From positions 496,001 to 560,000 of the forward strand of contig NZ_JPFK01000005.1 in the NCBI RefSeq assembly GCF_000733475.1: DNA of 64,000 nt. Direction: 5' to 3'. Position 1 is the stretch's first letter. Every line of letters begins with the position of its first letter. This stretch comes from Mangrovimonas yunxiaonensis. Its GTDB lineage: Bacteria > Bacteroidota > Bacteroidia > Flavobacteriales > Flavobacteriaceae. A program made the translations under genes and the position numbers. The notes below the pieces were generated by a model. The model had not been told where the DNA came from. It worked only from the letters and a program-made list of their open reading frames with translations, and ran no database searches. Positions 29,737 through 46,295 of this stretch are shown one piece after another.

Positions 29737-30192
29737 ATGAATACTTCAGCATCGGTTTCGTTAAAATATGGGGTGCTTACAGCGGTGGCCCTTGTCGGGT
29801 ATTTTTTACTGCTTAAGCTTATCGGATTACATCAAAACCCTTGGTTTAGGCTGTTTAATGGGGTTATTATGGCCTTTGGGCTTTTTATGGGGATAAAACA
29901 TTACAAAAGCGTTTCGGGCAATCAGTTTAATTACATTAATGGCTTTAAAACGGGGTTGTTAACCGGGTTTTGGGCGACCTTTATTTTTGCTGCTTTTATG
30001 GCGGTTTACATGTTTCATCTGGATGTGGAGTTTATGCACGCACTGCTGAAAAATTGGTTTGAAAACACCGATAAAGGAGGTGGGATTTTAATTTTTATTA
30101 TTCTTATAGAAGGGTTGGCTTCAACAACCGTACTAACATTAACGTTTATGCAAATCTTTAAAAGAAGTACAAAAATCACCGAAAAGGCATAA
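29737..30192 (+). CDS. DUF4199-family membrane protein
   Basis: A 151-residue inner-membrane protein with four hydrophobic segments (about residues 10-30, 38-54, 70-92, 112-138). The layout, with a short loop containing FNYINGFKTGLLTGF, fits DUF4199, a family common in Bacteroidota and without an assigned function. The Gly/Asp-rich ENTDKGGG loop precedes the last helix. It lies upstream of rplU, but a strong promoter between them suggests separate expression. Confidence 0.75.
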   Translation: MNTSASVSLKYGVLTAVALVGYFLLLKLIGLHQNPWFRLFNGVIMAFGLFMGIKHYKSVSGNQFNYINGFKTGLLTGFWATFIFAAFMAVYMFHLDVEFMHALLKNWFENTDKGGGILIFIILIEGLASTTVLTLTFMQIFKRSTKITEKA

Positions 30193-30196
30193 AACG

Positions 30197-30227
30197 TTTG
30201 TACTTTAAGAATTTAGGCGTATATTTG
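30197..30227 (+). promoter_or_regulatory. Promoter of rplU-rpmA
   Basis: TTTG (30197-30200), 19 bases, TATATTTG (30220-30227): an exact match to the Bacteroidota consensus, 51 bases before the rplU start. Confidence 0.88.
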
Positions 30228-30278
30228 CACTCATTTTTTCGAGTAAAAATTAATTAACATTAACTTAAACGTTACGCT

Positions 30279-30914
30279 ATGTACGCAATTGTAGAGATAG
30301 CAGGGCAACAATTTAAAGTTGAAAAAGACCAAAAAGTTTTTGTTAACCGTTTACAAACAGAAGAAGGAAAGACTGTGTCTTTCGACAACGTTCTTCTAAT
30401 TGGAGATGGTGACAATATAACTGTTGGCGCCCCGGCTATAAACGGCGCTCAAGTAGGAGCAAAAGTCGTTAAACACCTTAAAGGAGATAAGGTTATCGTT
30501 TTCAAAAAGAAAAGACGTAAAGGTTACCGTGTAAAAAATGGTCACCGTCAAGCCCTTTCTGAAATCGTAATCGAAAGTATTGTAGCTTCAGGAGCAAAAA
30601 AAGCTGCTCCAGCTAAAAAAGAAACAAAAAAAGCTGCACCAAAAAAGGCTGCCGCTAAAGCAGACGATTTAAAGAAAATTGAAGGCGTAGGTCCAAAAGC
30701 TATGGAAGCTTTTGTAAATGCAGGTCTTGATACTTTCGAAAAAATTGCTGCTACCAAACCAGAAAAATTGAGCGAAGTGCTTTCAGAAGCTAGCTCAAGA
30801 TTAGCTCATTTAGTAACCGATACTTGGCCAAAGCAAGCTAAACTTGCCGCCGATGGTAAATGGGACGAGTTAAAAGAATTACAAGACAAACTAGACGGCG
30901 GGATCGAGCAATAG
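30279..30914 (+). CDS. rplU: 50S ribosomal protein L21 with helix-hairpin-helix extension
   Basis: 211 residues, about twice the usual length. Residues 1-103 are complete bL21 (MYAIVEIAGQQFKVEKDQ, then FKKKRRKGYRVKNGHRQ, which binds 23S rRNA). A Lys/Ala-rich linker (about 104-128) leads to a helix-hairpin-helix-like domain (DDLKKIEGVGPKAMEAFVNAG, about 130-150) and a helical tail with WPKQAKLAADGKWDELK. Such extended L21 proteins are known from flavobacteria; the task of the tail is not established. It is followed by rpmA after 38 bases, the universal L21-L27 pair. Confidence 0.96.
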   Translation: MYAIVEIAGQQFKVEKDQKVFVNRLQTEEGKTVSFDNVLLIGDGDNITVGAPAINGAQVGAKVVKHLKGDKVIVFKKKRRKGYRVKNGHRQALSEIVIESIVASGAKKAAPAKKETKKAAPKKAAAKADDLKKIEGVGPKAMEAFVNAGLDTFEKIAATKPEKLSEVLSEASSRLAHLVTDTWPKQAKLAADGKWDELKELQDKLDGGIEQ

Positions 30915-30952
30915 ATCTTCGTTAATTATTAATAAAATAAAACCTTAAGACA

Positions 30953-31213
30953 ATGGCTCATAAAAAAGGAGTTGGTAGTTCTAAAAACGGTAGAGAATCA
31001 GAATCGAAACGCCTTGGTGTTAAGATTTTTGGAGGACAAGCTGCTGTTGCAGGGAACATTATCGTAAGACAAAGAGGTACAGCTCACAATCCTGGTGAGA
31101 ATGTATACGCTGGAAAAGACCACACTTTACACGCTAAAGTTGATGGTGTTGTAAAATTTGAAAAGAAGAAAAACGGAAAATCGTTTGTTTCTATAGTGCC
31201 TTTTGAAGCCTAA
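30953..31213 (+). CDS. rpmA: 50S ribosomal protein L27
   Basis: 86-residue bL27, whose N-terminus reaches the peptidyl-transferase centre. It begins directly with [20 protein letters not shown], with no Firmicutes-type cleaved extension, and contains [18 protein letters not shown]. It is in an operon with rplU and is followed by a strong terminator. Confidence 0.97.
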
Positions 31214-31236
31214 GAAACAGTCTTTTTAAAACATAT

Positions 31237-31274
31237 AAAAAGCGCTTTCTAATTATTAGAAAGCGCTTTTTTCG
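31237..31274 (+). terminator. Terminator of rplU-rpmA
   Basis: AAAAGCGCTTTCTAAT and ATTAGAAAGCGCTTTT form a near-perfect long hairpin, followed by a T-rich stretch. It lies 23 bases after the L27 stop. Confidence 0.92.
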
Positions 31275-31338
31275 TTTTATAGAATTATAAAACCTATGTG
31301 TATAAATTGTTAAATAAAGCACGACAGCCTTAAAAGTT

Positions 31339-31354
31339 AACCTAAGCTTAGGTT
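31339..31354. promoter_or_regulatory. 16-bp perfect palindrome upstream of the TonB receptor/phytase pair
   Basis: AACCTAAGCTTAGGTT is a perfect palindrome 64 bases before the receptor start. It could be the operator of a dimeric regulator. It is followed at 31363-31374 by AAGCGCTCTAAA, a 12-mer that recurs at 35439-35450 just past the phytase gene. Confidence 0.45.
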
Positions 31355-31417
31355 TTAATTAAAAGCGCTCTAAAACCGATTTCATTATTTAGTGGCTTAA
31401 CTAAAACAATCAAAATA

Positions 31418-34264: not shown

Positions 34265-35282
34265 CATAAAACGAACCTTGGCAGTAGTAGCTCTACCGTT
34301 ACTAATAGGCTCTTGCGCCAAGACATTGCCCGAAATAGCACCAACCTTAAAAACCGAGCAGGTGCCACACGATAGCGACGACCCGGCCATTTGGGTAAAT
34401 AGCGACAACCCAGAACAAAGTATTGTTTTTGGCACCGATAAAGATGAGGTTAACGGAGGGGTTTATGCCTTCGATTTAGCGGGTAACATCATGGCCGAAA
34501 AAAGTGTAACAGGAGTGAGTTACCCTAATAATGTTGATGTGGAATACGGGTTTAAATTAACCGACTCGACCCAAACAGATATTATGGTGTTTTCCGAAAG
34601 GGAAAAACACCGCATTAGAGTATATGCCATACCCGAAATGACTCCTTTAGACAACGGTGGTTTTCCTGTTTTTGAAGATGAATCGAATGCAGCCATGAAA
34701 CGCCCCATGGGGGTAGCGGTGTTTAAAGATCCAGAAACTGCAGAGGTATCGGTGTTTGTAAGTAGGAAAGAAGGACCAAAACAAGGCTATCTATATCAAT
34801 ATGCCTTAACATCAGGTGCTGCAGGCGTAAAAGCCACCCTGTTAAGAAAAATAGGGCGGTTTAGCGGCGAAAAGGAAATAGAAGCCATTGCCGTAGACGA
34901 CGAGTTGGGTTATGTTTATTATTCAGATGAAGGCGTAGGCATTAGAAAATATCACGCCAACCCCAAAAAGGGAGATGATGAAATTGCCATGTTTGGTAGC
35001 GAGTATTTTAAAGATGATATAGAAGGCATAGCCATTGCCAAGTACAGTAATGGCGAAGGAGCTTTAATTGTGTCTAATCAGCAGGACGGGACGTTTAACA
35101 TTTTTAATAGAACCGATAATGCGTACATAAAAACCTTAAACTTAGGAACGCTAGAGACAGATGGTTGCGATGTGGTGACAACTCCACTAGGGGCAAAGTA
35201 TCCAAATGGCTTGTTTGTATCTATGAACGACGAGCGTAATTTTTTCTACCACGCGTTAGATTCGTTACGGTTAAAAAAATAA
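34245..35282 (+). CDS. Beta-propeller phytase lipoprotein
   Basis: A 345-residue lipoprotein (ALPLLIGSC, lipobox Cys about residue 24) of the beta-propeller phytase family, which releases phosphate from myo-inositol hexakisphosphate using Ca2+. The signature DSDDPAIWVN lies at about residues 43-52, with NNVDVEYGF, EIEAIAVDDELGYVYYSDE and DDIEGIAIA marking successive blades with acidic Ca2+ ligands. Family members are about 350 residues, so it is full length. The start overlaps the receptor by 20 bases. The Cys anchor places it on a membrane surface, suited to feed the receptor. A terminator follows. Confidence 0.93.
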   Translation: MTYLRNNIKRTLAVVALPLLIGSCAKTLPEIAPTLKTEQVPHDSDDPAIWVNSDNPEQSIVFGTDKDEVNGGVYAFDLAGNIMAEKSVTGVSYPNNVDVEYGFKLTDSTQTDIMVFSEREKHRIRVYAIPEMTPLDNGGFPVFEDESNAAMKRPMGVAVFKDPETAEVSVFVSRKEGPKQGYLYQYALTSGAAGVKATLLRKIGRFSGEKEIEAIAVDDELGYVYYSDEGVGIRKYHANPKKGDDEIAMFGSEYFKDDIEGIAIAKYSNGEGALIVSNQQDGTFNIFNRTDNAYIKTLNLGTLETDGCDVVTTPLGAKYPNGLFVSMNDERNFFYHALDSLRLKK

Positions 35283-35310
35283 TTGATTCTCACTTTTTTT
35301 GATTGAAAGA

Positions 35311-35342
35311 AAGCCCTTTTGTAATAAAAGAGGGCTTTTTTA
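35311..35342 (+). terminator. Terminator of the receptor/phytase operon
   Basis: AAGCCCTTTT pairs with AAAAGAGGGCTT (one bulge) and is followed by TTTTT, 29 bases after the phytase stop. Confidence 0.8.
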
Positions 35343-35386
35343 ATATGTTTTCAATAGGTAAAAGCATTCAATACAAAGGTGTTTAA

Positions 35387-35418
35387 AAACAAAAAACCCT
35401 CACATTTCTGCAAGGGTT
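35387..35418 (-). terminator. Terminator of ahcY
   Basis: AACCCT and AGGGTT form a 6-bp stem with a 12-base loop; read on the minus strand it runs into TTTTTTG. It lies 57 bases past the ahcY stop. Confidence 0.65.
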
Positions 35419-35474
35419 AATCTAATATTTAAAACCGGAAGCGCTCTAAAGTCTAAACGCAACACCAATTTAAA

Positions 35475-36791
35475 TTAATATCTGTAGTGTTCTGGTTTGT
35501 ATGGACCTTCAACGGTTACACCAATGTATTTAGCTTGCTCGTCGCTAAGCTCGGTAAGCTCAACACCAATTTTAGCTAAGTGTAATTTGGCAACTTTCTC
35601 GTCTAGGTGCTTAGGAAGCATATAAACCTCGTTTCCGTAAGCTTCAGCGTTGTTCCAAAGCTCGATTTGTGCTAACGTCTGGTTGGTGAATGAGTTACTC
35701 ATTACAAAACTTGGGTGGCCTGTAGCGCATCCTAAGTTTACTAAGCGACCTTCGGCTAAGATGATGATATCGTTACCATCTATAGTATATTTATCAACTT
35801 GAGGTTTGATTTCAACTTTGGTGTTTCCGTAGTTTTGGTTTAACCAAGCCATCTGAATTTCGTTATCGAAGTGCCCAATATTACAAACGATGGTTTTGTC
35901 TTTCATCGCTTTAAAGTGTTCAGCTCTTACAATGTCTTTATTTCCAGTTGTTGTAATGACAATATCAGCATTACCAACAACAGTTTCTAATTTTTTAACT
36001 TCGTAACCATCCATTGCAGCTTGTAACGCACAGATTGGGTCGATTTCTGTTACGGTAACAATACTTCCAGCACCTTTAAATGAAGCAGCTGTGCCTTTAC
36101 CAACATCGCCATACCCACAAACCACAACACGTTTTCCGGCAAGCATCACGTCGGTAGCACGACGAATCGCATCTACAGCACTTTCTTTACAGCCGTATTT
36201 GTTATCGAATTTCGATTTGGTTACAGAGTCGTTTACATTTATGGCTGGCATAGGTAGGGTACCATTTTCCATACGCTCGTATAAACGGTGAACGCCAGTC
36301 GTGGTTTCCTCAGAAAGGCCTTTAATACCGGCGGCTAATTCTGGATATTGGTCCAGTACCATATTGGTTAAATCGCCACCATCATCTAAAATCATGTTTA
36401 ATGGCTGTCTGTCTTCGCCAAAGAAAAGGGTTTGCTCTATACACCAATCAAACTCTTCTTCGGTCATGCCTTTCCAAGCATATACAGGAATACCGGCAGC
36501 TGCAATGGCTGCGGCAGCATGGTCTTGGGTAGAGAATATGTTACAAGAACTCCAGGTTACTTCGGCGCCTAGGGCTACTAAAGTTTCAATCAATACAGCG
36601 GTTTGGATGGTCATGTGCAAGCATCCTGCAATTTTAGCGCCTTTTAAAGGTTGTTGCGCGCCGTATTCTTCTCTTAAACTCATTAATCCTGGCATTTCTG
36701 CTTCGGCCAGTTCTATTTCTTTTCTTCCCCATTCAGCCAGAGAAATGTCCTTTACCTTGTAAGGTACAAAAGGAATCGTTTTTGTGCTCAT
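35475..36791 (-). CDS. ahcY: Adenosylhomocysteinase
   Basis: Splits S-adenosylhomocysteine into adenosine and homocysteine, keeping methylation running. 438 residues with [15 protein letters not shown] (about 57-71), the active-site segment [18 protein letters not shown] (Lys and Asp of the substrate site, about 191-208), the NAD-binding [13 protein letters not shown] (about 221-233), and the C-terminal [14 protein letters not shown] and [10 protein letters not shown] carrying the conserved Lys and Tyr. It lacks the roughly 40-residue insertion of eukaryotic-type enzymes. It is divergent from the phosphopantetheinyl transferase gene, a pairing often seen in flavobacteria. Confidence 0.97.
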
Positions 36792-36883
36792 AGTTTTTCT
36801 TTTTTATGGTATTACAACTTTGGCAATCGTACTTAAATGGTTAAATTCGCTTTACAAAATTGTTTAAACTTCTTTAAGAAGTG

Positions 36884-36915
36884 CAAAGGTAGTCAATAAC
36901 TTTTAGAATATTAAA
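36884..36915 (-). promoter_or_regulatory. Promoter of ahcY
   Basis: On the minus strand TTTA (36912-36915), 20 bases, TACCTTTG (36884-36891). The -7 element is exact and the -33 is one base off. The roughly 90-base leader shows no SAM/SAH-riboswitch features. Confidence 0.6.
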
Positions 36916-37541
36916 TGCCACTATATAAAACACTTACTCCCAACTCCGAAACCACCGTTAAAATTTGGAAGATTACCGAATCGTATAACGAGTTAATGGC
37001 GCCCATTACACTAAAGCCTCAAAATAAGGCACGTGTGCTGGGCATGAAAAGTGAGTTGCACCAAAGGGGCTTTTTAAGTGTTCGGCATTTGCTGGCAGAA
37101 TTTGGCTATACCGATAACGATTTGTTTTACGACGAAAACGGCAAACCACACTTGAAGGATGGTAAGCATATTTCCATTACACACTCGTTTACCTTCTCGG
37201 GTGTTGTGGTTAGTAATGATGTGGTGGGGATTGATATAGAAAAGCAGCGCGAAAAAATAGGAGTCATTGCCCATAAATTTATGGACTATGAGTTTGAGTA
37301 TCTCAATAAAACAGCGCCCCAATACATTAATAAGCTAACGGTTATTTGGTGCATTAAGGAGTCGTTGTACAAATTGTTTGCAACGCCGGGGCTAAGCTTT
37401 TTGCAGCACACTTTGGTTATACCGTTTACTATGGACGATACTTCAACGGTTTCCTGGATAGATTATAATGGCAGAAAGTGCCGCTACCAAGCCGAATTTA
37501 TAGAGTTTGAAGGCTTTACGTGTGCTTATGTAACCCCTTAA
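36915..37541 (+). CDS. 4'-phosphopantetheinyl transferase superfamily protein
   Basis: A 208-residue Sfp/AcpS-type enzyme that moves phosphopantetheine from CoA to carrier proteins. It has the two signature blocks GIDIEKQREKIG (about residues 98-109) and WCIKESLYKLF (about 144-154, with the conserved Trp, Glu and Lys), plus ISITHSFTFS. It starts MPLYKTLTPNSET and ends one base before the GGGP synthase ATG. The target may be the fatty-acid or a secondary-metabolite carrier protein; no polyketide or NRPS genes are in view. Confidence 0.9.
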   Translation: MPLYKTLTPNSETTVKIWKITESYNELMAPITLKPQNKARVLGMKSELHQRGFLSVRHLLAEFGYTDNDLFYDENGKPHLKDGKHISITHSFTFSGVVVSNDVVGIDIEKQREKIGVIAHKFMDYEFEYLNKTAPQYINKLTVIWCIKESLYKLFATPGLSFLQHTLVIPFTMDDTSTVSWIDYNGRKCRYQAEFIEFEGFTCAYVTP

Positions 37542-37542
37542 A

Positions 37543-38280
37543 ATGAAATTTATTTACCAAAACATATTACAGCAAATAGCGCAAGGCAAAAAACTCCTCG
37601 CCGTTTTAATCGATCCCGATAAAATGCCGCTAGACAACGTTGAAGGCACGATTAAAAATGTGAATGAATCCTGGGTGACGCATATTTTTGTTGGGGGAAG
37701 TACGGTAAAGGCCGGGATAACAGCAGCTTTAGTTGCCCAAATAAAGGCACATACAACATTGCCTGTTGTACTGTTTCCGGGCGATGTTACGCAAATTACC
37801 AATAAAGCCGATGGGATATTGTTCTTAAGCCTGCTGTCAGGAAGAAACCCAGAATATCTAATCGATAAACAGGTGGCTTCGGTGGCCAAATTAAAAAATA
37901 CAACTTTAGAAGTGATACCAACAGGGTATCTTTTAATAGAAAATGGCAAGGAAACAGCCGTACAGCGGGTAACAGGTACCGCGCCCATGCCAAGGCATAA
38001 CGTGCAGCAAATTGTTCATACGGCAAAAGCTGGCGAGTATATGGGGAAACACCTTATATACCTTGAGGCTGGCAGTGGGGCTTTGCACCCCATTTCAGAA
38101 ACGATTATTTCAAAAGTAAAGCAAGAACTAAACATTCCTTTAATTGTTGGTGGTGGTATTAAAAACAAAAACCAACTCGAATCTGCCTATAAGGCTGGAG
38201 CCGATTTAGTGGTTATAGGAACTGCTTTTGAAACGGACGCCACTTTTTTTGAAGCGTTAAAGCTGGAAGCGAAGATTTAG
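37543..38280 (+). CDS. Geranylgeranylglyceryl/heptaprenylglyceryl phosphate synthase (PcrB/GGGPS family)
   Basis: A 245-residue TIM-barrel prenyltransferase joining a polyprenyl diphosphate to glycerol-1-phosphate. Motifs: LAVLIDPDKMP at the N-terminus (Mg2+-binding Asp), THIFVGGSTV, FPGDVTQI, YLEAGSGALHPIS (substrate phosphate and Glu) and IVGGGIKNKNQLESAYKAGADLVVIGTAFE with the standard phosphate-binding glycines. The family makes the archaeal membrane-lipid ether bond; Bacteroidota carry it widely with an unsettled role. It is coupled to the upstream transferase gene (one-base gap). Confidence 0.94.
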   Translation: MKFIYQNILQQIAQGKKLLAVLIDPDKMPLDNVEGTIKNVNESWVTHIFVGGSTVKAGITAALVAQIKAHTTLPVVLFPGDVTQITNKADGILFLSLLSGRNPEYLIDKQVASVAKLKNTTLEVIPTGYLLIENGKETAVQRVTGTAPMPRHNVQQIVHTAKAGEYMGKHLIYLEAGSGALHPISETIISKVKQELNIPLIVGGGIKNKNQLESAYKAGADLVVIGTAFETDATFFEALKLEAKI

Positions 38281-38330
38281 GAACAAGCAGAAATTAATTA
38301 AAAACATAACTGCATTTTGCAGAAAGTAAC

Positions 38331-38591
38331 ATGAAAATATCAGTCGAACTTACCCTTACCCCTTTACAGGACGATTTTGAACCTGCAATCATTCATTTTA
38401 TAAAAAAGCTAAGAGCATCTAACCTAGAGGTTTTGGAAAACCCGTTAAGCACCCAGGTTTATGGCGAGTATGATGAGGTTATGCACCTCCTAACCACAGA
38501 GATTAAAGATGCTTTTGAACTGGTTGAACGCGGCCTGCTATACATGAAAATCGTAAAATCTGACAGACACGACTATGAGCCCCATTTTTGA
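38331..38591 (+). CDS. Thiamine-binding-protein family (MTH1187/YkoF-like, UPF0045)
   Basis: 86 residues with the ferredoxin-like fold of the thiamine_BP family: MKISVELTLTPLQDDFEPAIIHFIKKLRASN, then STQVYGEYDEVMHLL. YkoF of Bacillus binds thiamine or its HMP moiety. It is the first of five overlapping genes and shares 17 bases with pnuC. A TPP riboswitch and a receptor lie directly after the set, which supports a thiamine link. Confidence 0.85.
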   Translation: MKISVELTLTPLQDDFEPAIIHFIKKLRASNLEVLENPLSTQVYGEYDEVMHLLTTEIKDAFELVERGLLYMKIVKSDRHDYEPHF

Positions 38592-39207
38592 TTGGTTGTT
38601 TGCACAATACCAAGGCGTTGATACACACCTTATTGTTTTAGAGTTTTTAGGAGTGTTTTTTGGTTTTTTAAGCGTGTGGTATTCTAAACAGGAAAATATT
38701 CTTGTATATCCCACAGGCATTATAAGCACCGCAATTTTTGTCTACATTTTATGGGTTTATGGCCTTTTGGGCGACATGTTTATAAACGCCTATTATTTTT
38801 CCATGAGCATTTACGGATGGTATTACTGGACCCGAAAAGGTGCCGACAACACCCAAGTACCCGTTACCAAAACCACCAAAAAAGAACACCTGTGGAGTGT
38901 AGTTATTTTTGTGCTAACCCTACTGTTTGTAATCGCAGTTTATAAAGTAAACAACAAGTTTAATGCTTGGACTGCTTATGTAGATACGGTTACAACAGCC
39001 ATATTTTTTGTTGGCATGTGGTTAATGGCCAAAAAGAAACTGGAAAATTGGACCTATTGGATTATAGGCGATCTTATTTCGGTGCCTTTGTATTTTTACA
39101 AAGGGTTGATTTTTACGTCTTTTCAATATTTTTTGTTTACTATTATAGCGATTTATGGATTTAGAGCATGGAAGAACAGCTTAAACAACAACCCGCAAAC
39201 TGCATAA
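38575..39207 (+). CDS. PnuC-family transporter (nicotinamide riboside or thiamine, PnuT-like)
   Basis: A 210-residue inner-membrane protein with seven or eight hydrophobic segments. Family marks: EFLGVFFGFLSVWYSKQENILVYPTGIIST at the front, MSIYGWYYWTRKG in the middle (aromatic gate), and YVDTVTTAIFFVGMWLMAKKKLENW near the end. PnuC proteins import nicotinamide riboside, and Bacteroidota paralogues near TPP riboswitches import thiamine (PnuT). Flanking by a thiamine-binding protein and a TPP-controlled receptor favours thiamine; the adjoining NadR-kinase-like gene would favour nicotinamide riboside. It overlaps the next gene by 40 bases. Confidence 0.92.
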   Translation: MSPIFDWLFAQYQGVDTHLIVLEFLGVFFGFLSVWYSKQENILVYPTGIISTAIFVYILWVYGLLGDMFINAYYFSMSIYGWYYWTRKGADNTQVPVTKTTKKEHLWSVVIFVLTLLFVIAVYKVNNKFNAWTAYVDTVTTAIFFVGMWLMAKKKLENWTYWIIGDLISVPLYFYKGLIFTSFQYFLFTIIAIYGFRAWKNSLNNNPQTA

Positions 39208-39737
39208 AAGTTGTGTTGTTTGGCCCCGAAAGTACCGGGAAAACAACTTTGTCAAGACAGTTAGCCAGACATTACAGCTCGGTTTGGGTGCCAGAATATG
39301 CCCGGGAATACCTTCAAAATAAATGGAACAACGAACGTAAAACCTGTGCTCCAGAGGATCTGCTGCCCATAGCGGTTGGGCAAATGGCCTTAGAGAACCG
39401 CTTGGCTAAAAAAACCAATACGGTGTTAATTTGTGATACCGATTTGTTGGAAACCAAAGTGTATTCCGAAGCGTATTATGCCGAAACGTGCGACCCATTA
39501 TTAGAAGAATACGCTCTTAAAAATACCTACGACCTATATTTTTTAACCTATATTGACGTGCCTTGGGAAAAAGACGATTTGCGCGACAAACCCAATGAGC
39601 GAGAACGCATGTTTAAAGCGTTTGAGCGCGCACTAAAAACCCACAACAGACCGTATGTTTTGTTAAAGGGCGATAAGGAATCGCGCCTAAAAACAGCCGT
39701 GTCGCATATTGATGAACTTTTAAAGCAAAATACATGA
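39168..39737 (+). CDS. NadR-kinase-like AAA ATPase (vitamin kinase candidate)
   Basis: 189 residues with a P-loop at the front, VVLFGPESTGKTTLSRQLA (about 13-31), as in the ribosylnicotinamide-kinase domain of NadR, followed by WVPEYAREYLQ and ICDTDLLETKVY. The NMN adenylyltransferase and HTH parts of full NadR are absent. Known relatives phosphorylate nicotinamide riboside to trap it after PnuC import. In this thiamine-flavoured setting the substrate could instead be thiamine (inference). It overlaps pnuC by 40 bases and DUF4301 by 4. Confidence 0.88.
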   Translation: MEEQLKQQPANCIKVVLFGPESTGKTTLSRQLARHYSSVWVPEYAREYLQNKWNNERKTCAPEDLLPIAVGQMALENRLAKKTNTVLICDTDLLETKVYSEAYYAETCDPLLEEYALKNTYDLYFLTYIDVPWEKDDLRDKPNERERMFKAFERALKTHNRPYVLLKGDKESRLKTAVSHIDELLKQNT

Positions 39738-41266
39738 GTTTTTCTAAAACAGATGTTCAAGTCATACAACATAAAGGGCAAACTGTAGAGAAGGTAGAGC
39801 AACAGCTCCAAACTTTTAAAGCAGGCCTGCCCGTTACAACACTTAAAGCCGCCGCTACAATAGGAAAAGGCATTGTAAGCGTTCCTGAAAGCGATAAACA
39901 CATGTATATCCGTTTTTTTAACGATGTTAAGGATGCCTATGCCATTCAAAAATTTGTACCAGCTTCTGGTGCCGCAACGCGAATGTTTAAGTTTTTATAC
40001 CATTTTTTAGAAACGTTTAATCCAGAGCAGGACGACTTTAAAACCTACACCCAAAATCATCCAGACCTTCTTGTTTTTGTAAATGGCCTGGAGCGTTTTC
40101 CGTTTTACGAAAAGGTGGTAAAGCACATCCCAGATTTTAAGGCTTTAGATTTAGGGCATAAGACCTATCGTTTTGCTAGTGTGCTTCTAAATTCTAACGG
40201 ATTAAATTACGGAGCGCTGCCAAAGGGCTTGTTGCCGTTTCATAAATATACCAACCAAACCCGAACTGCTTTTGCCGAGCATTTGCTAGAAGCCGCCAGA
40301 TATGCGGTTTCAAAAGGTAAGGCAAATGTGCATTTTACCATTTCGCCTCAGCACGAAAACAATTTTAAAGACCAGCTTCAAGAGGCTTTAAAAATGGTAG
40401 AGCACAAGACCGGTGTTCAAGTTGATGTGGCGTTTTCGTTTCAAAAGGAAACAACCGATACGGTTGCCGTTAACTTAGACAATACACCGTTTAGGCTGGC
40501 CGATGGTGCTATGTTATTCCGTCCGGGAGGGCACGGAGCTTTAATAGAGAATCTGAATGATTTGAATGCCGATATCGTGTTTGTTAAAAATATTGATAAT
40601 GTTGTAATAGACGCTTTCGAAGAAGATGTAGTTGCGTACAAGAAAATGCTGGCCGGCATGTTGCTTAAGCTTCAGCAAGAGAGTTTTGCCTATGCCAAGG
40701 TCTTAGAGGAAGGAAAGGTTGAAGACTTAGGTGCTCTTGAAATGTTCTTGACCGAAAGTTTGAATGTGGTCTTTTTAGAAGATTACAACAGCCTTTCAAC
40801 ACCCGAAAAAATAGGCCGTTTAAAGACGCATCTCAATAAGCCCATTCGTGTTTGTGGCATGGTGAAAAATGAAGGCGAACCAGGGGGAGGACCATTTTGG
40901 ACAGAAAATAGCGAGGGTAGGATATCGTTGCAGATTGTAGAGTCGGCACAAATGAATACTGCAGATAGCTCGCAACGCCAGATTTTGCAAAATGCCACGC
41001 ATTTTAATCCTGTCGATTTGGTTTGTGGTTTAAAGAACTATAAAGGAGAGGCTTTTAATTTAACACAGTTTGTAGATGCTAAGGCGGCCTTTATAACCCA
41101 GAAAGACAAAGCAGGAAAGCCGTTAAAAGCCTTAGAACTTCCTGGTCTTTGGAACGGTGCCATGGCCTATTGGAACACCATTTTTGTTGAGGTGCCCTTA
41201 CTTACATTTAATCCGGTAAAAACGGTAAACGACCTTTTAAAGCCCACACATCAACCCCATGTTTAA
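39734..41266 (+). CDS. DUF4301 protein with nucleotidyltransferase-like motifs
   Basis: 510 residues, recognised as DUF4301; I know of no assigned function. FVPASGAATRMFKFLYHF (about 76-93) looks like the GGxGTR loop of sugar-nucleotide pyrophosphorylases. GALPKGLLPFHKY (about 157-169) matches their PKG segment, and FRPGGHGALIENLNDLNADIVFVKNIDNV (about 256-284, read as two adjacent pieces) recalls the PxGNGGxY and DN metal motif of the UDPGP group. The C-terminal part contains MVKNEGEPGGGPFW. These likenesses are read by eye. The gene sits inside an overlapping operon (4 bases with the kinase, 8 with arfB), so its product is probably made together with them. Confidence 0.8.
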   Translation: MSFSKTDVQVIQHKGQTVEKVEQQLQTFKAGLPVTTLKAAATIGKGIVSVPESDKHMYIRFFNDVKDAYAIQKFVPASGAATRMFKFLYHFLETFNPEQDDFKTYTQNHPDLLVFVNGLERFPFYEKVVKHIPDFKALDLGHKTYRFASVLLNSNGLNYGALPKGLLPFHKYTNQTRTAFAEHLLEAARYAVSKGKANVHFTISPQHENNFKDQLQEALKMVEHKTGVQVDVAFSFQKETTDTVAVNLDNTPFRLADGAMLFRPGGHGALIENLNDLNADIVFVKNIDNVVIDAFEEDVVAYKKMLAGMLLKLQQESFAYAKVLEEGKVEDLGALEMFLTESLNVVFLEDYNSLSTPEKIGRLKTHLNKPIRVCGMVKNEGEPGGGPFWTENSEGRISLQIVESAQMNTADSSQRQILQNATHFNPVDLVCGLKNYKGEAFNLTQFVDAKAAFITQKDKAGKPLKALELPGLWNGAMAYWNTIFVEVPLLTFNPVKTVNDLLKPTHQPHV

Positions 41267-41663
41267 TGCCGATGCACTTATAAAAGAACTCGAGTTTAAA
41301 GCCGTTAAAAGCTCTGGTGCTGGTGGGCAGCATGTTAATAAAACAGCGTCAAAGGTTGAGCTGTACTTTAATGTTGCAGCTTCCGAAGTTTTAAACGAGG
41401 AACAAAAAGCACTCCTAATTAAAAACCTAGGCACCCGGCTCACTAAAGACAGGGTGTTAATGTTGCAATGTGGCGAAAGTAGAAGCCAGCATAAAAATAA
41501 AGAAACGGTTATTTCGCGGTTTTTAAAGCTTGTAAGTACTCATATTAAACGCCCCAAAAAGCGAAAAAAAACAACGGTTCCCAAGATGGCCAAACTAAAA
41601 CGACTTCAAAATAAAAAACAACAATCCGAAAAAAAGGCCAATAGAAAGCCGCCAAAACTATAA
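41259..41663 (+). CDS. arfB: Alternative ribosome-rescue factor ArfB (YaeJ)
   Basis: A 134-residue peptidyl-tRNA hydrolase that frees ribosomes stalled on mRNA ends. The catalytic SSGAGGQHVNKTASKVEL contains the GGQ motif (about residues 19-21), and the last 40 residues are a Lys/Arg-rich tail (KRPKKRKKTTVPKMAKLK) that enters the empty mRNA channel. No codon-recognition domain is present, which separates it from RF1/RF2. It overlaps DUF4301 by 8 bases. Confidence 0.94.
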   Translation: MFNADALIKELEFKAVKSSGAGGQHVNKTASKVELYFNVAASEVLNEEQKALLIKNLGTRLTKDRVLMLQCGESRSQHKNKETVISRFLKLVSTHIKRPKKRKKTTVPKMAKLKRLQNKKQQSEKKANRKPPKL

Positions 41664-41748
41664 CGAGGTTAGGGTGCTGTTTATAAAAGGCTAAAACACA
41701 TTGTGTCAAAACACTTGCTGCGGACTCGGGATAAAACACCGATTATTC
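41664..41748. other. Gap before the riboswitch promoter
   Basis: The stretch between arfB and the receptor (399 bp in total) is occupied mainly by a promoter, a TPP riboswitch and a terminator, annotated separately. In these first 85 bases I see nothing recognisable. Confidence 0.5.
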
Positions 41749-41779
41749 ATTGCCAATTGTGAATTGTTGCCTACCTTTG
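41749..41779 (+). promoter_or_regulatory. Promoter for the TPP riboswitch transcript
   Basis: ATTG (41749-41752), 19 bases, TACCTTTG (41772-41779). The -7 element is an exact match and the -33 is one base off TTTG. The expected start near 41785 falls just before the first conserved riboswitch bases, which supports both calls. Confidence 0.75.
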
Positions 41780-41789
41780 CGGCGTTCTC

Positions 41790-41950
41790 AAAAAGGGGTG
41801 CTTGATAGATTACCGATTTGAGATTACCGATTACCGGTTTTAGCAATTTAAAACGCATAAATCGACCATCGGAAATCGACCATCGAAAAAATCTGAAAGG
41901 CTGAGATCATACCCAATGAACCTAGAACAGGTAATGCTGTTTAGGGACAG
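41790..41950 (+). promoter_or_regulatory. TPP riboswitch (THI element) with enlarged P3 arm
   Basis: Conserved blocks in order: GGGGTGC at 41795-41801, GGCTGAGA at about 41899-41906, ACCC at about 41911-41914, GAACCT at about 41918-41923, GGTAATGC at about 41930-41937, and TTTAGGGA at about 41940-41947. These match the thiamine-pyrophosphate aptamer. Between the first two blocks lie about 97 bases, much more than a minimal P3, filled with direct repeats (AGATTACCGATT twice and AAATCGACCATCG twice) that can pair with each other. It is placed to switch off the TonB receptor when TPP is plentiful. Confidence 0.93.
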
Positions 41951-41951
41951 T

Positions 41952-42004
41952 GAATGTTCATATTTCTGTATCCGGATCAGAGTTTTGGACATTCCCATTT
42001 TTAA
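41952..42004 (+). terminator. Expression-platform terminator of the TPP riboswitch
   Basis: GAATGTTC (41952-41959) and GGACATTC (41987-41994) pair over 8 bp with one wobble, enclosing a second hairpin CTGTATCCGGATCAG, and are followed by CCATTTTT. This fits a conditional terminator between the aptamer and the receptor gene. The anti-terminator pairing was not resolved. Confidence 0.65.
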
Positions 42005-42039
42005 TCAAAATACTAACAAAGAATAATGACCTCTTTTTA

Positions 42040-42063
42040 TTCGACAAAATTTATTTTATCGAA
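42040..42063 (+). promoter_or_regulatory. Hairpin touching the start codon of the thiamine receptor gene
   Basis: TTCGACAAAAT and ATTTTATCGAA form an 11-base inverted repeat with one mismatch and a 2-base loop. The second arm ends on the A of the ATG. It could hinder ribosome access; its meaning is uncertain. Confidence 0.35.
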
Positions 42064-44249
42064 TGAAAAATGTATGCGCATTTTTAGCACTGTTTTTATT
42101 ATCTCTAGGTGCTTTTTCACAAGAAAAACAGCAGGATTCTACCAAAATAGAAACCTTAGACGAGGTTTTGGTAAAGGCCGTAAGGGTAGAGGCAACATCG
42201 CCAATAACACATTCCAATGTCACTAAAGAAGACTTAGAAAAGCGCAATTTAGGCCAGGACATTCCTGTGCTTTTAAATTATTTGCCTTCTGTAGTTACCA
42301 CTACCGATGCCGGTGCCGGTGTGGGCTATACCAACATTCGTGTGCGTGGTGTAAGCTCGCAGTCGACCAATGTAACCATTAACGGAATTCCGTATAACGA
42401 TGCCGAGTCGTTAGGGACGTTTTGGGTGAATTTAGGCGATATGGCTTCGTCTGTAGAAAGCTTACAGCTACAACGTGGTGTGGGAACATCGACCAATGGT
42501 TCGGGAGCTTTTGGGGCAAGTGTTAATGTGCTTACCGATGCCGTTTCTAATGATGCTTATGGCGAAATTTCAAACACATTTGGAAGTTATAACACTAGAA
42601 AACACACGCTAAAGTTTAGCACAGGAAAACTTAACGATCGCATTGAAATTGCCGGGCGTTTGTCGCAAATTAAATCGGATGGGTATATCGATAGGGCGTC
42701 TTCAGACATCAAATCGTACTATCTGCAGGCCGCTTATGTAGACGATAAAACCTTATTAAAGGCCATTACGTTTTCAGGAAAAGAAGTGACCTACCAGTCT
42801 TGGAATGGCTTGGAGGACTTAGATAAACTTGAAAACGATAGAACGTACAATACGGCTGGAGAATATACCGATGCAGACGGCAACATCAGGTTCTACGATA
42901 ACGAAGTAGACAATTACCAACAAGATCATTACCAATTGCATTGGAACCAAAAACTAACCAGTAACTGGTCGACAAACTTAGCCCTGAATTATACCAAAGG
43001 GCACGGTTATTTTGAGCAGTACAAAGAAGACGAAGATTTTTCAGATTACGGTTTTGAGGAATTAACCGTAGACGGCACATTGGTAAATACCACCGATTTA
43101 ATAAGAAGACGTTGGTTGGATAACGATTTTTATGTGGTGAATGCTAATGCCACTTATAAGGATAACGATAAACTTAACGTTATTTTTGGAGGGTCTTACA
43201 GCCATTACAAAGGCGATCATTTTGGTGAAGTTATTTGGGCAAGGTATGCCACCAATAGCGAAATTAGAGACCGTTATTACGATGGGGTTGGTAAAAAACA
43301 AGACTTAAGTGGTTTTGCTAAGGCGACCTTCCGTTTTAATGATAATTGGAGCTTATTTGGAGATTTACAATTGCGACATGTGGCTTATGAAACCACGGGG
43401 ATTTCATCGGATTTAGTACCATTTAATGTTGATAAAAATTACACTTTCTTCAATCCAAAAGCAGGGGTAACCTTCGAATTAAACAACAAGAACAACCTGT
43501 ATTTCTCGTATGCGAGAGCTAACAGAGAGCCTAACCGCGACGATTTTAAAGGCAACCCAGATATTAAGCCAGAAAAACTAAACGATTTTGAATTGGGTTG
43601 GAGACATAATAATGACAACTTCAGAATTTATGCGAATGGCTATTTTATGCTGTATAATGACCAATTAGTGCTAACGGGTGAGTTAGACGACGTAGGAAGT
43701 CCGCAACGCGATAACAGTGGTGAAAGCTACCGATTAGGTCTGGAGATTGATGCAGCCATAAAAATAAACAACATACTTTCTCTGCATCCTAACGTTACCT
43801 TAAGCTCGAATAAAAATAAGGACATGCTAGCAGCTGTAGATGGTGAGTTGAAAAACTTGGGAACCACCAATATTTCATTTTCTCCAGAAGTGGTTGCAGG
43901 AAATGCCATTGTAGTAAAGCCTATTAAAAATTTACACATGGCATTGTTAAGCAAGTTTGTAGGCGAGCAGTATATGGGCAACACCAATTCTGAACGCTCA
44001 AAACTGGATAGCTATTTTGTAAATGACTTTAACATTGTTTACGAGTTGCAGATGAACAAGATTTTTAAGTCGATAGTCTTTAAAGGTGTGGCCAATAACA
44101 TTTTGAATAAAGAATACATTTCTAACGGATATTACTATACTTATGATGATACTTGGACCGACCCTAACCAAGTAACTACCATAGAAGGCGCAGGGTATTA
44201 CCCACAAGCTACAGCCAACTTTTTGTTGGGCGCTACTCTAAAATTTTAA
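42063..44249 (+). CDS. TPP-riboswitch-controlled TonB-dependent receptor (probable thiamine uptake)
   Basis: A 728-residue outer-membrane receptor with signal peptide (about residues 1-20), no carboxypeptidase-like domain, a TonB-box/plug region starting LDEVLVKAVRVEATSPITHSNVTKEDLE, plug motifs TNIRVRGVSSQSTNVTINGIPYND and SSVESLQLQRGVGTSTNGSGAFG, and a barrel ending LLGATLKF with the terminal Phe. The preceding TPP riboswitch identifies the class: in Bacteroidota such receptors import thiamine or its precursors (Omr1-type). It follows the pnuC-containing operon on the same strand. Substrate preference is inferred from the regulation. Confidence 0.93.
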   Translation: MKNVCAFLALFLLSLGAFSQEKQQDSTKIETLDEVLVKAVRVEATSPITHSNVTKEDLEKRNLGQDIPVLLNYLPSVVTTTDAGAGVGYTNIRVRGVSSQSTNVTINGIPYNDAESLGTFWVNLGDMASSVESLQLQRGVGTSTNGSGAFGASVNVLTDAVSNDAYGEISNTFGSYNTRKHTLKFSTGKLNDRIEIAGRLSQIKSDGYIDRASSDIKSYYLQAAYVDDKTLLKAITFSGKEVTYQSWNGLEDLDKLENDRTYNTAGEYTDADGNIRFYDNEVDNYQQDHYQLHWNQKLTSNWSTNLALNYTKGHGYFEQYKEDEDFSDYGFEELTVDGTLVNTTDLIRRRWLDNDFYVVNANATYKDNDKLNVIFGGSYSHYKGDHFGEVIWARYATNSEIRDRYYDGVGKKQDLSGFAKATFRFNDNWSLFGDLQLRHVAYETTGISSDLVPFNVDKNYTFFNPKAGVTFELNNKNNLYFSYARANREPNRDDFKGNPDIKPEKLNDFELGWRHNNDNFRIYANGYFMLYNDQLVLTGELDDVGSPQRDNSGESYRLGLEIDAAIKINNILSLHPNVTLSSNKNKDMLAAVDGELKNLGTTNISFSPEVVAGNAIVVKPIKNLHMALLSKFVGEQYMGNTNSERSKLDSYFVNDFNIVYELQMNKIFKSIVFKGVANNILNKEYISNGYYYTYDDTWTDPNQVTTIEGAGYYPQATANFLLGATLKF

Positions 44250-44291
44250 ACGTTATGTTTCTCTAAGTTCTATTCGTACGAACTTAACCTT

Positions 44292-44324
44292 AAAGCCCAA
44301 GCAGCAATGTTTGGGCTTTTATTG
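44292..44324. terminator. Bidirectional terminator after the thiamine receptor gene
   Basis: AAAGCCCAA and TTGGGCTTT form a perfect 9-bp stem with a 10-base loop, with T-runs on each strand. It serves the receptor and the convergent lipoprotein gene. Confidence 0.85.
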
Positions 44325-44337
44325 TTTTTGGGCAGGC

Positions 44338-44787
44338 TTAATTGTTATAAACCCTAATAATATTCCCACTCACTTCTACAAAATAAGGGCGTAGCCCGTA
44401 AGGTCCTGTTGTGCCTTCTTGTCCTTGCCCGGTTAGCACGTCGTAGGCATTGCCATCGTCGCACAAACACGACACAATAATGCCTTCTAGGTTAAGCTTA
44501 GAGCAGGTTTGTAAGGCGTGGTTGGGGTCGCTCAACTCAAAAGCGGTAAAGCCGCTACCAGTATTCATAACCACAATACCATTAATGCCATAGGCAGCAT
44601 TGTTTATGGCCACGGGATTGTTAGGAAAGTTAAGCGCGTTAAACTGTGGTAGGTTGGTGTTTATTAATGTGCCGGTATCAAACGCTACATTAGGGAGGTA
44701 TTGGTTGTTGTTGTGGTCGTCATCATTCTTATTGCAAGAAGCCATTAAAAATAAAGCGAGTAAACTAAAGTATAAGGGGTGTTTCAT
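44338..44787 (-). CDS. Rieske-like lipoprotein lacking the 2Fe-2S ligands
   Basis: A 149-residue lipoprotein with lipobox LMASC (Cys about residue 18) and an Asn/Asp-rich linker. The C-terminal half follows the Rieske layout: a first loop HALQTCSKLNLEG and a second loop VSCLCDDGNAYDVLTGQ leading to GLRPYFVEVSGNIIRVY, as in CPCHGxxFDxxTG then PLxxY. The histidine of each CxH box is replaced, so a normal 2Fe-2S cluster is not expected. From memory, related flavobacterial lipoproteins share this fold; the function is unknown. It stands alone between a terminator and greA. Confidence 0.7.
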   Translation of the reverse strand: MKHPLYFSLLALFLMASCNKNDDDHNNNQYLPNVAFDTGTLINTNLPQFNALNFPNNPVAINNAAYGINGIVVMNTGSGFTAFELSDPNHALQTCSKLNLEGIIVSCLCDDGNAYDVLTGQGQEGTTGPYGLRPYFVEVSGNIIRVYNN

Positions 44788-45011
44788 GGGTGTAAAATTT
44801 CAAGTTGCTATTTGTGCCTGTGGCAGTTACCACCTAAAAAGGGGTGTTAAAAGGTTTTAAAAAGATGAAATACGGGGCGTAATTTACAAAAAAAGACGAC
44901 TGACATAAATATTTTGTATATTTGTGTTACAATCTCGTGAAAACGGGATTTTTGTATTTTATTGCCCAAAGGGTCTATAATAAAAACAGGTTTAATTTAA
45001 ACGATGAAGTT
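44788..45011. other. Intergenic region between the Rieske-like gene and greA, with a possible greA -7 element
   Basis: A 224-bp gap. TATATTTG at 44917-44924 fits TAnnTTTG and lies 88 bases before the greA ATG; no TTTG at the right distance was found. Nothing else is recognised. Confidence 0.4.
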
Positions 45012-45485
45012 ATGAGTAAAGTATCTTATTACACTGCCGAAGGATTAAAAAAGCTAAGGGCCGAGTTAAATCATTTAAAAGATATTGAACGTCCCAAAGC
45101 TTCACAAGCCATTGCAGAAGCCAGAGATAAGGGAGACTTGAGTGAAAATGCCGAGTACGATGCTGCCAAAGAAGCGCAAGGACTGCTAGAGATGAAAATC
45201 TCCAAAATGGAAGAAACCTTGTCTAATGCCAGGTTGATAGACGAGTCGCAATTAGATACCTCTAAAGTGCTGGTACTTTCTAAGGTGAAAATTAAAAATC
45301 AAGCCAATGGTATGGAAATGAATTATACCCTAGTGGCCGAAAGTGAAGCCGATTTGGCCTCAGGGAAAATATCGGTAAATTCGCCTATAGGAAAAGGGCT
45401 CTTAGGAAAATCGGTTGGCGATGTCGCAGAGATACAAGTGCCCAATGGAAAAATAAACTTCGAGATTTTAGAAATTTCGAGATAA
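45012..45485 (+). CDS. greA: Transcription elongation factor GreA
   Basis: 157 residues that rescue backtracked RNA polymerase by stimulating transcript cleavage. The N-terminal coiled coil contains the acidic tip DLSENAEYDAAKEAQG with the catalytic Asp and Glu (about 41-44); the C-terminal FKBP-like domain contains KISVNSPIGKGLLGKSVGD. The frame is open to 44922, but the extra 30 residues have no GreA similarity and lie over the promoter, so the ATG at 45012 is used. A terminator follows. Confidence 0.96.
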   Translation: MSKVSYYTAEGLKKLRAELNHLKDIERPKASQAIAEARDKGDLSENAEYDAAKEAQGLLEMKISKMEETLSNARLIDESQLDTSKVLVLSKVKIKNQANGMEMNYTLVAESEADLASGKISVNSPIGKGLLGKSVGDVAEIQVPNGKINFEILEISR

Positions 45486-45513
45486 CTTGCCCAAAAATTA
45501 AAACAGAAAAAAG

Positions 45514-45551
45514 ATTCCTGCTTGATGTATTTAGGCAGGAATTTTCTTTTT
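45514..45551 (+). terminator. Terminator of greA
   Basis: ATTCCTGC and GCAGGAAT form an 8-bp stem with a 13-base loop, followed by TTTCTTTTT. Confidence 0.88.
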
Positions 45552-45583
45552 ATCTTTAACTGTATTTTTATAGCATTGTAAAC

Positions 45584-45976
45584 ATGGCATCAATCTTCAC
45601 AAAAATTATTAATGGCGAACTACCATCATACAAAATAGCCGAAACCGACGAGTTCTTTGCGTTTCTGGATATTAATCCAAACGCCAAGGGGCATACGTTG
45701 TGTATTCCTAAAAAGGAAGTGGATAAAATTTTCGATTTAGATGAGGAGACCTACATGGGTTTAATGGCTTTTTCAAGACAGGTGGCCAAGGCTATAGAGC
45801 AAGTTATTCCATGCGAGCGTGTGGGCATGTCTGTTATTGGGTTAGAAGTGCCTCATGTTCATGTGCATTTAATTCCTTTACGCCATATGGAAGACGCCAG
45901 ATTTACCACTAAAGATACCCTTACACCAGAAGAATTTAAAGCAGTAGCTACGGCCATACAAGCAGCGTTGCAATAA
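45584..45976 (+). CDS. HIT-family hydrolase
   Basis: A 130-residue histidine-triad protein with FTKIINGELPSYKIAETD at the front, FLDINPNAKGHTLCIPKKEV in the core and the catalytic HVHVHLIPL (about residues 97-105). Relatives hydrolyse AMP-linked phosphoramidates or dinucleoside phosphates; the exact substrate is not clear. Its last 29 bases overlap the end of the convergent zinc-ribbon gene. Confidence 0.94.
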   Translation: MASIFTKIINGELPSYKIAETDEFFAFLDINPNAKGHTLCIPKKEVDKIFDLDEETYMGLMAFSRQVAKAIEQVIPCERVGMSVIGLEVPHVHVHLIPLRHMEDARFTTKDTLTPEEFKAVATAIQAALQ

Positions 45977-46295
45977 TTGCAGCTGCAACCAATACAGAAC
46001 CGGCAATAAGCCACCAAGCCGCTTTTTTTAATTTTATAGAAGTTTTTTTAGGTTTAAAAGCACGTTGGTGGTAATTAAACACGCGGTCTATGTCGTCGGT
46101 CCATCGGGCAGGGTAAATAACGGTATGGCATACACGGCATTCAATTTCCTGTGCAGTCTCGTTGGTAATAGATTTGTACCATTTGGTTTCAATAAACTTT
46201 TGCTTAAATGTTAAGTGTAGCCCATTGTTGTTGTAACACTCTGGGCAATTGTTGTTTAGCACAGCTTCTTTAACTGTAAAAAAATGTTCTTCCAT
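45948..46295 (-). CDS. Putative zinc-ribbon membrane protein, unknown function
   Basis: 115 residues. Two Cys pairs, CPEC (about 18-21) and CRVC (about 53-56), are spaced like a zinc ribbon, and residues about 93-113 form one membrane helix (AAWWLIAGSVLVAAAIIATLLVW). This suggests a small tail-anchored protein. I do not recognise the family. It lies 11 bases downstream of the histidine-kinase gene on the same strand, so they may be co-expressed, and overlaps the HIT gene tail to tail by 29 bases. Confidence 0.65.
   Translation of the reverse strand: MEEHFFTVKEAVLNNNCPECYNNNGLHLTFKQKFIETKWYKSITNETAQEIECRVCHTVIYPARWTDDIDRVFNYHQRAFKPKKTSIKLKKAAWWLIAGSVLVAAAIIATLLVWP

Follow-up and report, generated by a model that had tools for sequence, protein, structure and literature searches.

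A 64,000-nt stretch of the Mangrovimonas yunxiaonensis genome (contig NZ_JPFK01000005.1, positions 496,001 to 560,000), here called the window, harbours a gene of the DUF4301 family (PF14134) at positions 39734..41266 of the + strand. Its 510-aa product matches the family model with an E-value of 3e-209 (696.5 bits) and, according to an AlphaFold2 model and its fold matches, has a predicted GT-A fold of the type found in UDP-glucose pyrophosphorylases (UGP; Pfam family UDPGP) and UDP-N-acetylglucosamine pyrophosphorylases (UAP). The gene lies in an operon on the same strand that starts with a small protein of 86 aa from the Thiamine_BP family (PF01910; 38331..38591, +; 28.4 bits vs a cut-off of 24.9). 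This is followed by a PnuC-family transporter proposed to be the thiamin transporter PnuT (38575..39207, +; PF04973, 1.6e-54; TIGR01528 over cut-off) and by an AAA_28 P-loop kinase related to the kinase domain of NadR and proposed to be a thiamin kinase (39168..39737, +; PF13521, 1.8e-44; TIGR01526 matched only in its kinase part and below cut-off). The evidence makes it fairly probable that DUF4301 belongs to the UDPGP/UAP-type nucleotidyltransferases, probably acts on a sugar-1-phosphate and joined a thiamin operon in the Flavobacteriaceae.

The translational coupling of these genes, which had been claimed in the original prediction, is real and even tighter than described, since the kinase and DUF4301 genes overlap by 4 nt and the PnuC and kinase genes by 40 nt. 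The Thiamine_BP gene, absent from that prediction, overlaps PnuC by 17 nt. On the other side, the gene of the ribosome-rescue hydrolase ArfB (41259..41663, +; NF006718, 122.3 bits vs a cut-off of 100) overlaps DUF4301 by 8 nt and is probably only co-transcribed with it.

In the M. yunxiaonensis genome (2.67 Mb, 99% complete), the window gene is the single PF14134 match, and the family was found in 66 of the 395 Bacteroidota genomes sampled. No NCBIfam model matches the window protein, and a phmmer search of the PDB with this single sequence returned nothing at E ≤ 10; no solved member of the family was found in the PDB. We know of no DUF4301 member that has been assayed. In the literature searched, as far as the accessible portions of the texts go, DUF4301, PF14134 or IPR025393 turned up in one paper, which names it a single time, and no assigned function was found. 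Conservation was analysed in two alignments, one comprising the window protein and 80 homologues with 49–56% identity to it (81 sequences) and the other 28 diverse members from across the phylum, with identity down to 33%. A genome of genus g2 (G289:C54:1491357-1492843) carries a DUF4301 gene split in two with a stop codon, either a pseudogene or a sequencing error.

The structure of the window protein was predicted with AlphaFold2 from the 81-sequence alignment, yielding a confident model (predicted local distance difference test, pLDDT, 92.8; predicted template modelling score, pTM, 0.91). A Foldseek search of the PDB returned 22 matches with E ≤ 0.001, every one a UDP-glucose or UDP-N-acetylglucosamine (UDP-GlcNAc) pyrophosphorylase; the UGP 2icy ranked first (E 1.2e-9, probability 1.00), and the next entries after the UGP/UAP set were mainly RmlA-type enzymes. 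Realignment of the Foldseek candidates with VIA-align gave Ugp1 (2i5k) as the best match (Z 23.6, 325 of 510 residues aligned, 3.8 Å), followed among others by LmUGP (2oef, Z 22.9), human UGP (22.2), AGX2 (1jvg, 21.1) and GlmU (16.5). Most UGP matches cover DUF4301 from residue 1 or 5 to residue 510, with around 330 residues aligned, and stop at residues 372–415 of the UGP chains. The GT-A-type pyrophosphorylase fold originally proposed for DUF4301 is supported by a confident model whose best matches are UGP and UAP enzymes and span the protein.

The original prediction was built on a series of motifs, ASGAATRMFKFL, GALPKGLLPFHKY and FRPGGHGALIENL followed by VKNIDNV, which indeed occur in the DUF4301 protein from residues 77, 160, 262 and 284, respectively. 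Their order is that of the UDPGP motifs, as had been stated, but the UDPGP-like spacing did not hold: 81 residues separate R83 from K164, vs the eight residues between the loop threonine and its lysine in a bacterial UDPGP (L140). Residues G79, R83, P163, K164, G266-H267-G268, N286, D288 and N289 are invariant in 81/81 and 28/28 sequences, so the motif match is not due to chance. The third residue of the PKG motif does vary, as four of the 28 proteins (L116, L124, L125 and L129) have PKA.

The equivalent of the nucleotide loop, residues 76–85 (PASGAATRMF; 39959..39988, +), lies behind the strand formed by residues 71–76 and takes the place of the GGxGT[RS] loop with PK[SG] close behind; in DUF4301, PASGAATRM is followed by PKG some 80 residues on. 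Seven of its positions (P76, A77, S78, G79, R83, M84 and F85) are invariant among the 28 sequences, with R83 as the likely phosphate-binding arginine. In the PKG motif (residues 163–165; 40220..40228, +), of which P163 and K164 are kept in all 28 sequences, K164 aligns with the UDPGP loop lysine (K90 of L140). The GHG motif of UDP-glucose pyrophosphorylases appears in FRPGGHG (residues 262–268; 40517..40537, +), with R263, P264 and G266-H267-G268 invariant and aligned to UAP 3oc9 and UDPGP L140. It is followed by the NxDN motif in KNIDN (residues 285–289; 40586..40600, +), assigned through its conservation in both alignments and the match to 3oc9; GHG, N286, D288 and N289 are all kept in the 28 diverse members.

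Three further motifs are found toward the C-terminus. E403 in ESAQ (residues 403–406; 40940..40951, +) aligns with the ExAQ motif of UGP and N425 in FNP (residues 424–426; 41003..41011, +) with the FN of UGP, and we regard these two residues as the Glu and Asn that bind the sugar. K496 in FNPVKTVNDLL (residues 492–502; 41207..41239, +) occupies the position of the catalytic lysine of UGP and UAP enzymes in the alignments to UGP and UDPGP. All three residues are invariant in 28/28 sequences.

In Aspergillus fumigatus UAP1 (AfUAP1), the available part of the published description reports that N-acetylglucosamine 1-phosphate (GlcNAc-1P) is held by Asn249, Gly316, Glu329, Tyr330, Asn355 and Lys437, that the contacts of uridine triphosphate (UTP) include Arg141, Lys148 and Gln222, and that Lys437 is required for catalysis (PMC8386105). 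The corresponding catalytic lysine of LmUSP is K434, according to the excerpt available (PMC12584669). In LmUGP, the lysine aligned to K496 is residue 380, as counted in the alignment. E403 and N425 (matching Glu329 and Asn355), K496, K164, R83 and Q237 are taken as the putative DUF4301 counterparts of the ligand-binding and catalytic residues of AfUAP1, with the equivalence of R83 and Q237 taken from their place in the fold and the motif order. By homology, these positions would share one pocket; the convergence of the motifs envisaged by the original prediction is supported only through alignment with structurally characterised enzymes.

Conservation of the Glu, Asn and catalytic Lys counterparts argues for an active enzyme with a sugar-1-phosphate acceptor. 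As the retained Glu and Asn match the residues that bind GlcNAc-1P in UAP1, a sugar phosphate is favoured over a vitamin phosphate. We infer that DUF4301 would join a nucleoside triphosphate (UTP as a first guess) to a sugar-1-phosphate and release pyrophosphate, with the help of one Mg2+ and lysine 496.

Sequence comparisons point to the same families. The Pfam UDPGP model (PF01704) matches 16 of the 28 diverse members at E ≤ 1, with six members at 16.7–20.4 bits, below the cut-off, and a DUF4301 gene found in the genome search (G009) reaching 18.5 bits. A profile of the 28 members retrieved from the PDB the UAP 3oc9 (E 0.018), via GHG and NxDN, and the UGP 7ppr (E 0.49), via ExAQ and FxPVKTxxDLL. 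Alignment by hhalign to two bacterial UDPGPs (L140 and L141) gave an E-value of 2.9e-5 and a probability of 74 in the C-terminal part, and nothing usable in global mode. In a joint MAFFT alignment, K164, P264, GHG, E403, Q406, F424-N425, E468, F492 and P494-V495-K496 pair with identical UDPGP residues. This alignment misplaces the nucleotide loop and NxDN, so that the former is equated through secondary structure and fold, and the latter through the 3oc9 match. Partial UDPGP matches also occur in open frames of about 1110–1156 aa in several Bacteroidota (L142–L147).

Several observations weigh against the placement of DUF4301 among active UGP/UAP enzymes. The Pfam UDPGP model does not match the window protein at E ≤ 1, a single member of the 28 exceeds the PF01704 cut-off (L044, from Sinomicrobium; 7e-6, 25.4 bits vs 22), and the matches at E ≤ 0.01, seven in number, span just the last 25–110 residues. 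The two profile matches in the PDB are each weak alone, because a thioredoxin, presumably a chance match, ranks between them at 0.46. The Foldseek TM-scores of the 22 matches are 0.34–0.49 (by query length), with root-mean-square deviations of 5.9–22.9 Å. The nucleotide loop is PASGAATRM and not GGxGT, and a large helical region precedes PKG; in the model, residues 81–152, between the loop strand and PKG, hold helices that would form an insertion relative to UGP. The C-terminal left-handed beta-helix of UGP is missing, with DUF4301 ending where the UGP core ends, eight residues past DLL, vs the 89 residues by which UDPGP L140 continues past its own. The activity of DUF4301 may have been lost.

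The altered loop and the large insertion would suit a protein that kept the fold but serves as a regulator or scaffold and not as an enzyme, for instance a sensor fused to the kinase. However, the catalytic Lys and the ligand-contact positions are invariant across the phylum, which would be needless in an inactive protein, and DUF4301 has no kinase alongside in 20/20 examined genomes outside the Flavobacteriaceae. A non-enzymatic role is accordingly judged quite unlikely.

Within the preferred reading of DUF4301 as a UDPGP/UAP-type nucleotidyltransferase, a special case would have it act as the UDP-glucose (or broad UDP-sugar) pyrophosphorylase that is missing from these bacteria. This role is one concrete option because the M. 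yunxiaonensis genome has GalE over cut-off but neither a UDPGP match nor GalU over cut-off, and the ExAQ and PVKT..DLL motifs align best to UGP. Nevertheless, GalU exceeds its cut-off in just 5/395 genomes and DUF4301 is present in 66/395, so the majority of Bacteroidota must have another solution. DUF4301 also occurs in two of the five genomes with GalU (G190 and G249), and no clear pattern of anticorrelation of GalU or UDPGP with DUF4301 was found. In M. yunxiaonensis itself, four weaker matches to the galU model could serve, and other nucleotidyltransferases could fill the role. This special case is possible but on the unlikely side.

The original prediction had placed DUF4301 in a vitamin-salvage operon, and this is supported by Thiamine_BP, by a thiamin pyrophosphate (TPP) riboswitch and by the biosynthetic genes of the genome, in which ThiC, ThiE and thiamin pyrophosphokinase (TPK) are absent while ThiL is kept. 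The riboswitch (41784..41964, +) has a long insert and scores under the Rfam gathering score (30.7 bits, E 0.0028, gathering 54.3); a model derived from five relatives raises this to 46.7 bits. It precedes a TonB-dependent receptor (42063..44249, +; PF00593, PF07715), likely the thiamin outer-membrane receptor. Farther upstream, a second TonB-dependent receptor is followed by a phytase (31418-35282, +; PF02333, E 9e-38) in overlapping genes, a likely phytate-use pair.

The locus was compared across a set of 80 loci, none of them dropped, two of which (L069 and L107) end at contig ends. At the Rfam gathering score, nothing was detected in positions 30000-46000 of the window or in 12 loci; a scan at relaxed thresholds placed a TPP match in the interval from DUF4301 to the receptor in 5/6 loci, and a custom model was built from those five. 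This model matches all of the same 12 loci, the window and 65/80 loci (60/75 without the five founders), always on the downstream side of DUF4301, at a distance of some 5 kb in L083. No riboswitch was found ahead of PnuC, either in the window scan or with the custom model in the 80 loci. PnuC is present in 76 of the 80 loci, and Thiamine_BP stands ahead of it in 66 of these.

The imported vitamin is most likely thiamin (B1). Since the operon is most likely devoted to thiamin, the PnuC-family protein is likely a PnuT and the kinase likely a putative thiamin kinase that would convert thiamin to thiamin monophosphate (ThMP); TIGR01528 is not known to separate PnuC from PnuT. The genome lacks a ThMP source (no ThiE and no TPK; other thiamin kinase families such as ThiK were not searched for), making the kinase a natural candidate. 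In the proposed route, an outer-membrane receptor under the TPP riboswitch would stand next to the thiamin operon, the PnuT-like transporter would import thiamin, the kinase would produce ThMP and ThiL would finish the coenzyme, with Thiamine_BP encoded in the same operon. DUF4301 is no required step of this salvage route.

Support for the role of the kinase comes from its distribution relative to TPK. Among 36 hand-picked genomes, 12 have the kinase without TPK, two have both, 21 have TPK without the kinase and one has neither (Fisher p 8.7e-7). As points that temper the thiamin reading, the Fisher test ignores shared ancestry, and the addition of 16 more same-family genomes with a locus (nine with the kinase alone and seven with both) changes the counts to 21, 9, 21 and 1, respectively. 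In this extended set, the kinase occurs in 21/22 TPK-less genomes and also in 9/30 TPK-bearing ones; the seven added double positives all belong to genus g2, in which two TPK-bearing genomes (G335 and G084) gave no match to the kinase. On the whole, a sampled genome tends to carry either the kinase or TPK. In the literature searched, no paper brought together three or more of NadR, PnuC, thiamine kinase and Flavobacteria.

The closest relation of the kinase is nevertheless the ribosylnicotinamide kinase domain of NadR, so nicotinamide riboside has to be considered as its substrate. In the corresponding reading, PnuC, which passes TIGR01528, and the kinase would handle nicotinamide riboside, with DUF4301 as a GT-A-type nicotinamide mononucleotide adenylyltransferase (NMNAT) completing nicotinamide adenine dinucleotide (NAD). 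This appears barely plausible, given that the genome encodes a NadD scoring above its cut-off, that Thiamine_BP and a TPP riboswitch are the neighbours, and that the kinase and TPK are complementary. The 189-aa kinase matches just the kinase part of TIGR01526 (162–323 of 325) and does not combine NMNAT and kinase in one protein, as NadR does. As the imported vitamin, nicotinamide riboside was set aside in view of Thiamine_BP, the riboswitch, the lack of TPK, ThiE and ThiC, and the retention of ThiL.

The linkage of DUF4301 to the kinase is close. Leaving loci L002–L006, which do not belong to the Flavobacteriaceae, outside the table of arrangements, the kinase adjoins DUF4301 in 71/80 loci and is fused to it in 5/80 (76/80 in total), and 41 of the 71 adjacent, unfused pairs show the 4-nt overlap. 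In L027 and L104, PnuC and DUF4301 are present with no kinase match between them. Kinase–DUF4301 fusions occupy 14 of 110 tree rows (two of them identical) and require at least eight changes, six of which are forced by well-supported branches. The P-loop is kept in every fused protein, and a natural fusion was modelled with a pLDDT of 92.9 and a pTM of 0.82 (vs 0.91 for DUF4301 alone), scores that come without an error estimate for the placement of the two domains. This repeated fusion suggests a closer cooperation between kinase and DUF4301 than a sugar nucleotidyltransferase in a thiamin operon would need, and thus counts against that reading. It is suggestive and not decisive, because one small indel easily fuses genes that overlap by 4 nt. 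Conserved gene order is weak evidence here as well, since the SAHH, PPTase and PcrB genes are also often retained beside the locus.

DUF4301 and the PnuC–kinase pair are separable in both directions. Of the 41 Flavobacteriaceae genomes in the sample, 36 carry DUF4301, and the five without it (L154–L158) all keep the kinase beside PnuC, with ArfB as the next recognised gene in four of them. Outside the family, 20/20 examined DUF4301 neighbourhoods (of 30 genomes) have neither PnuC nor the kinase beside DUF4301, as judged by BLAST against the window proteins at 1e-4, a search that very divergent PnuC or kinase proteins could escape. A kinase match is entirely absent from fourteen of these 20 genomes, while in five of the other six the kinase adjoins PnuC elsewhere; where found, it is on other contigs than DUF4301. 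No widely shared DUF4301 neighbours were detected in these 20 neighbourhoods. In five related genomes (L111–L115; f11 and f12), a divergent RelA/SpoT-type gene stands beside DUF4301, with the Pfam assignment made in L111 only.

These separations bear directly on the proposal, made in the original prediction, that the imported compound passes from the kinase to DUF4301. In its thiamin version, DUF4301 would transfer a nucleotide onto phosphorylated thiamin, forming adenosine thiamin diphosphate (AThDP) from ThMP or adenosine thiamin triphosphate (AThTP) from thiamin diphosphate (ThDP). The co-directional 4-nt overlap, the recurrent fusion with its confident model and the thiamin operon context all favour such a step. 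Moreover, the accessible parts of the literature report that bacteria contain AThDP and AThTP, and describe a ThDP adenylyl transferase activity (PMC8615392), AThTP being known from bacteria in a further source seen in excerpt (PMC1976097). The proposal is nonetheless doubtful and on balance unlikely, in the light of the five same-family genomes that keep PnuC and the kinase without DUF4301, the 20/20 separations outside the family and the preserved equivalents of the Glu and Asn that bind the sugar. To our knowledge, no gene for adenylated-thiamin synthesis has been reported. The fuller version, in which a UGP-type fold makes AThDP or AThTP with its acceptor switched to a thiamin phosphate and is coupled or fused to a new thiamin-kinase family, is highly unlikely.

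The reading of DUF4301 as a UDPGP/UAP-type nucleotidyltransferase that joined the thiamin operon would place the family among the UGP/UAP enzymes and name its likely catalytic lysine, allowing a direct assay for a family of unknown function. If true, the assignment of the NadR-like P-loop kinase as the thiamin kinase of TPK-less Flavobacteriaceae would close a gap in B1 salvage.

DUF4301 and its operon can be compared with several known systems. With the UDPGP family (PF01704: Ugp1, LmUGP, plant and human UGP) it shares a fold match that spans the protein and includes the N-terminal helical region (UGP Z 18.2–23.6), and the motifs GHG, NxDN, ExAQ, FN and FxPVKTxxDLL in the same order. In contrast, its loop reads PASGAATRM where the family has GGLGT, the loop is separated from PKG by some 70 additional residues, mostly in helices, and the protein stops right after DLL with no C-terminal beta-helix. 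In addition, 27/28 members, including the window protein, are below the Pfam cut-off, and DUF4301 can be fused to a kinase. With UAP1, AGX1/2 and UDP-sugar pyrophosphorylase (USP) it shares the fold (Z 17.5–21.1), the loop Arg and the Glu, Asn and Lys positions for the sugar phosphate, as well as GHG with UAP 3oc9. The GHG His presumably stands where AfUAP1 has Asn249, by motif equivalence. UAP and USP differ from DUF4301 in the loop, the insertion and the C-terminal part that it lacks. An altered loop, an insertion, the lack of a beta-helix and a natural kinase fusion, within a UGP/UAP-like protein, are what is new for DUF4301.

The operon resembles the thiamin operon OMthi-pnuT-tnr3 of Bacteroides, described with TPP riboswitches in the portion of the source available (PMC5613172), in its riboswitch-controlled outer-membrane receptor, its PnuC-family transporter and a thiamin-phosphorylating enzyme, the latter as proposed here. 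As far as that source goes, the window differs in having a NadR-like kinase in the place of tnr3, together with Thiamine_BP and DUF4301, and in a riboswitch that precedes the receptor and not PnuC. Finally, NadR combines an NMN adenylyltransferase with a ribosylnicotinamide kinase; the window kinase is a relative of the latter, the C-terminal domain of NadR, and adjoins a PnuC protein, and some DUF4301 genomes likewise contain a nucleotidyltransferase–kinase fusion. Unlike the NMNAT domain of NadR, however, DUF4301 has a UGP-type GT-A fold and joins the kinase at its opposite end, in a thiamin context. The Bacteroides enzyme that the window kinase would replace, tnr3, is a thiamin pyrophosphokinase.

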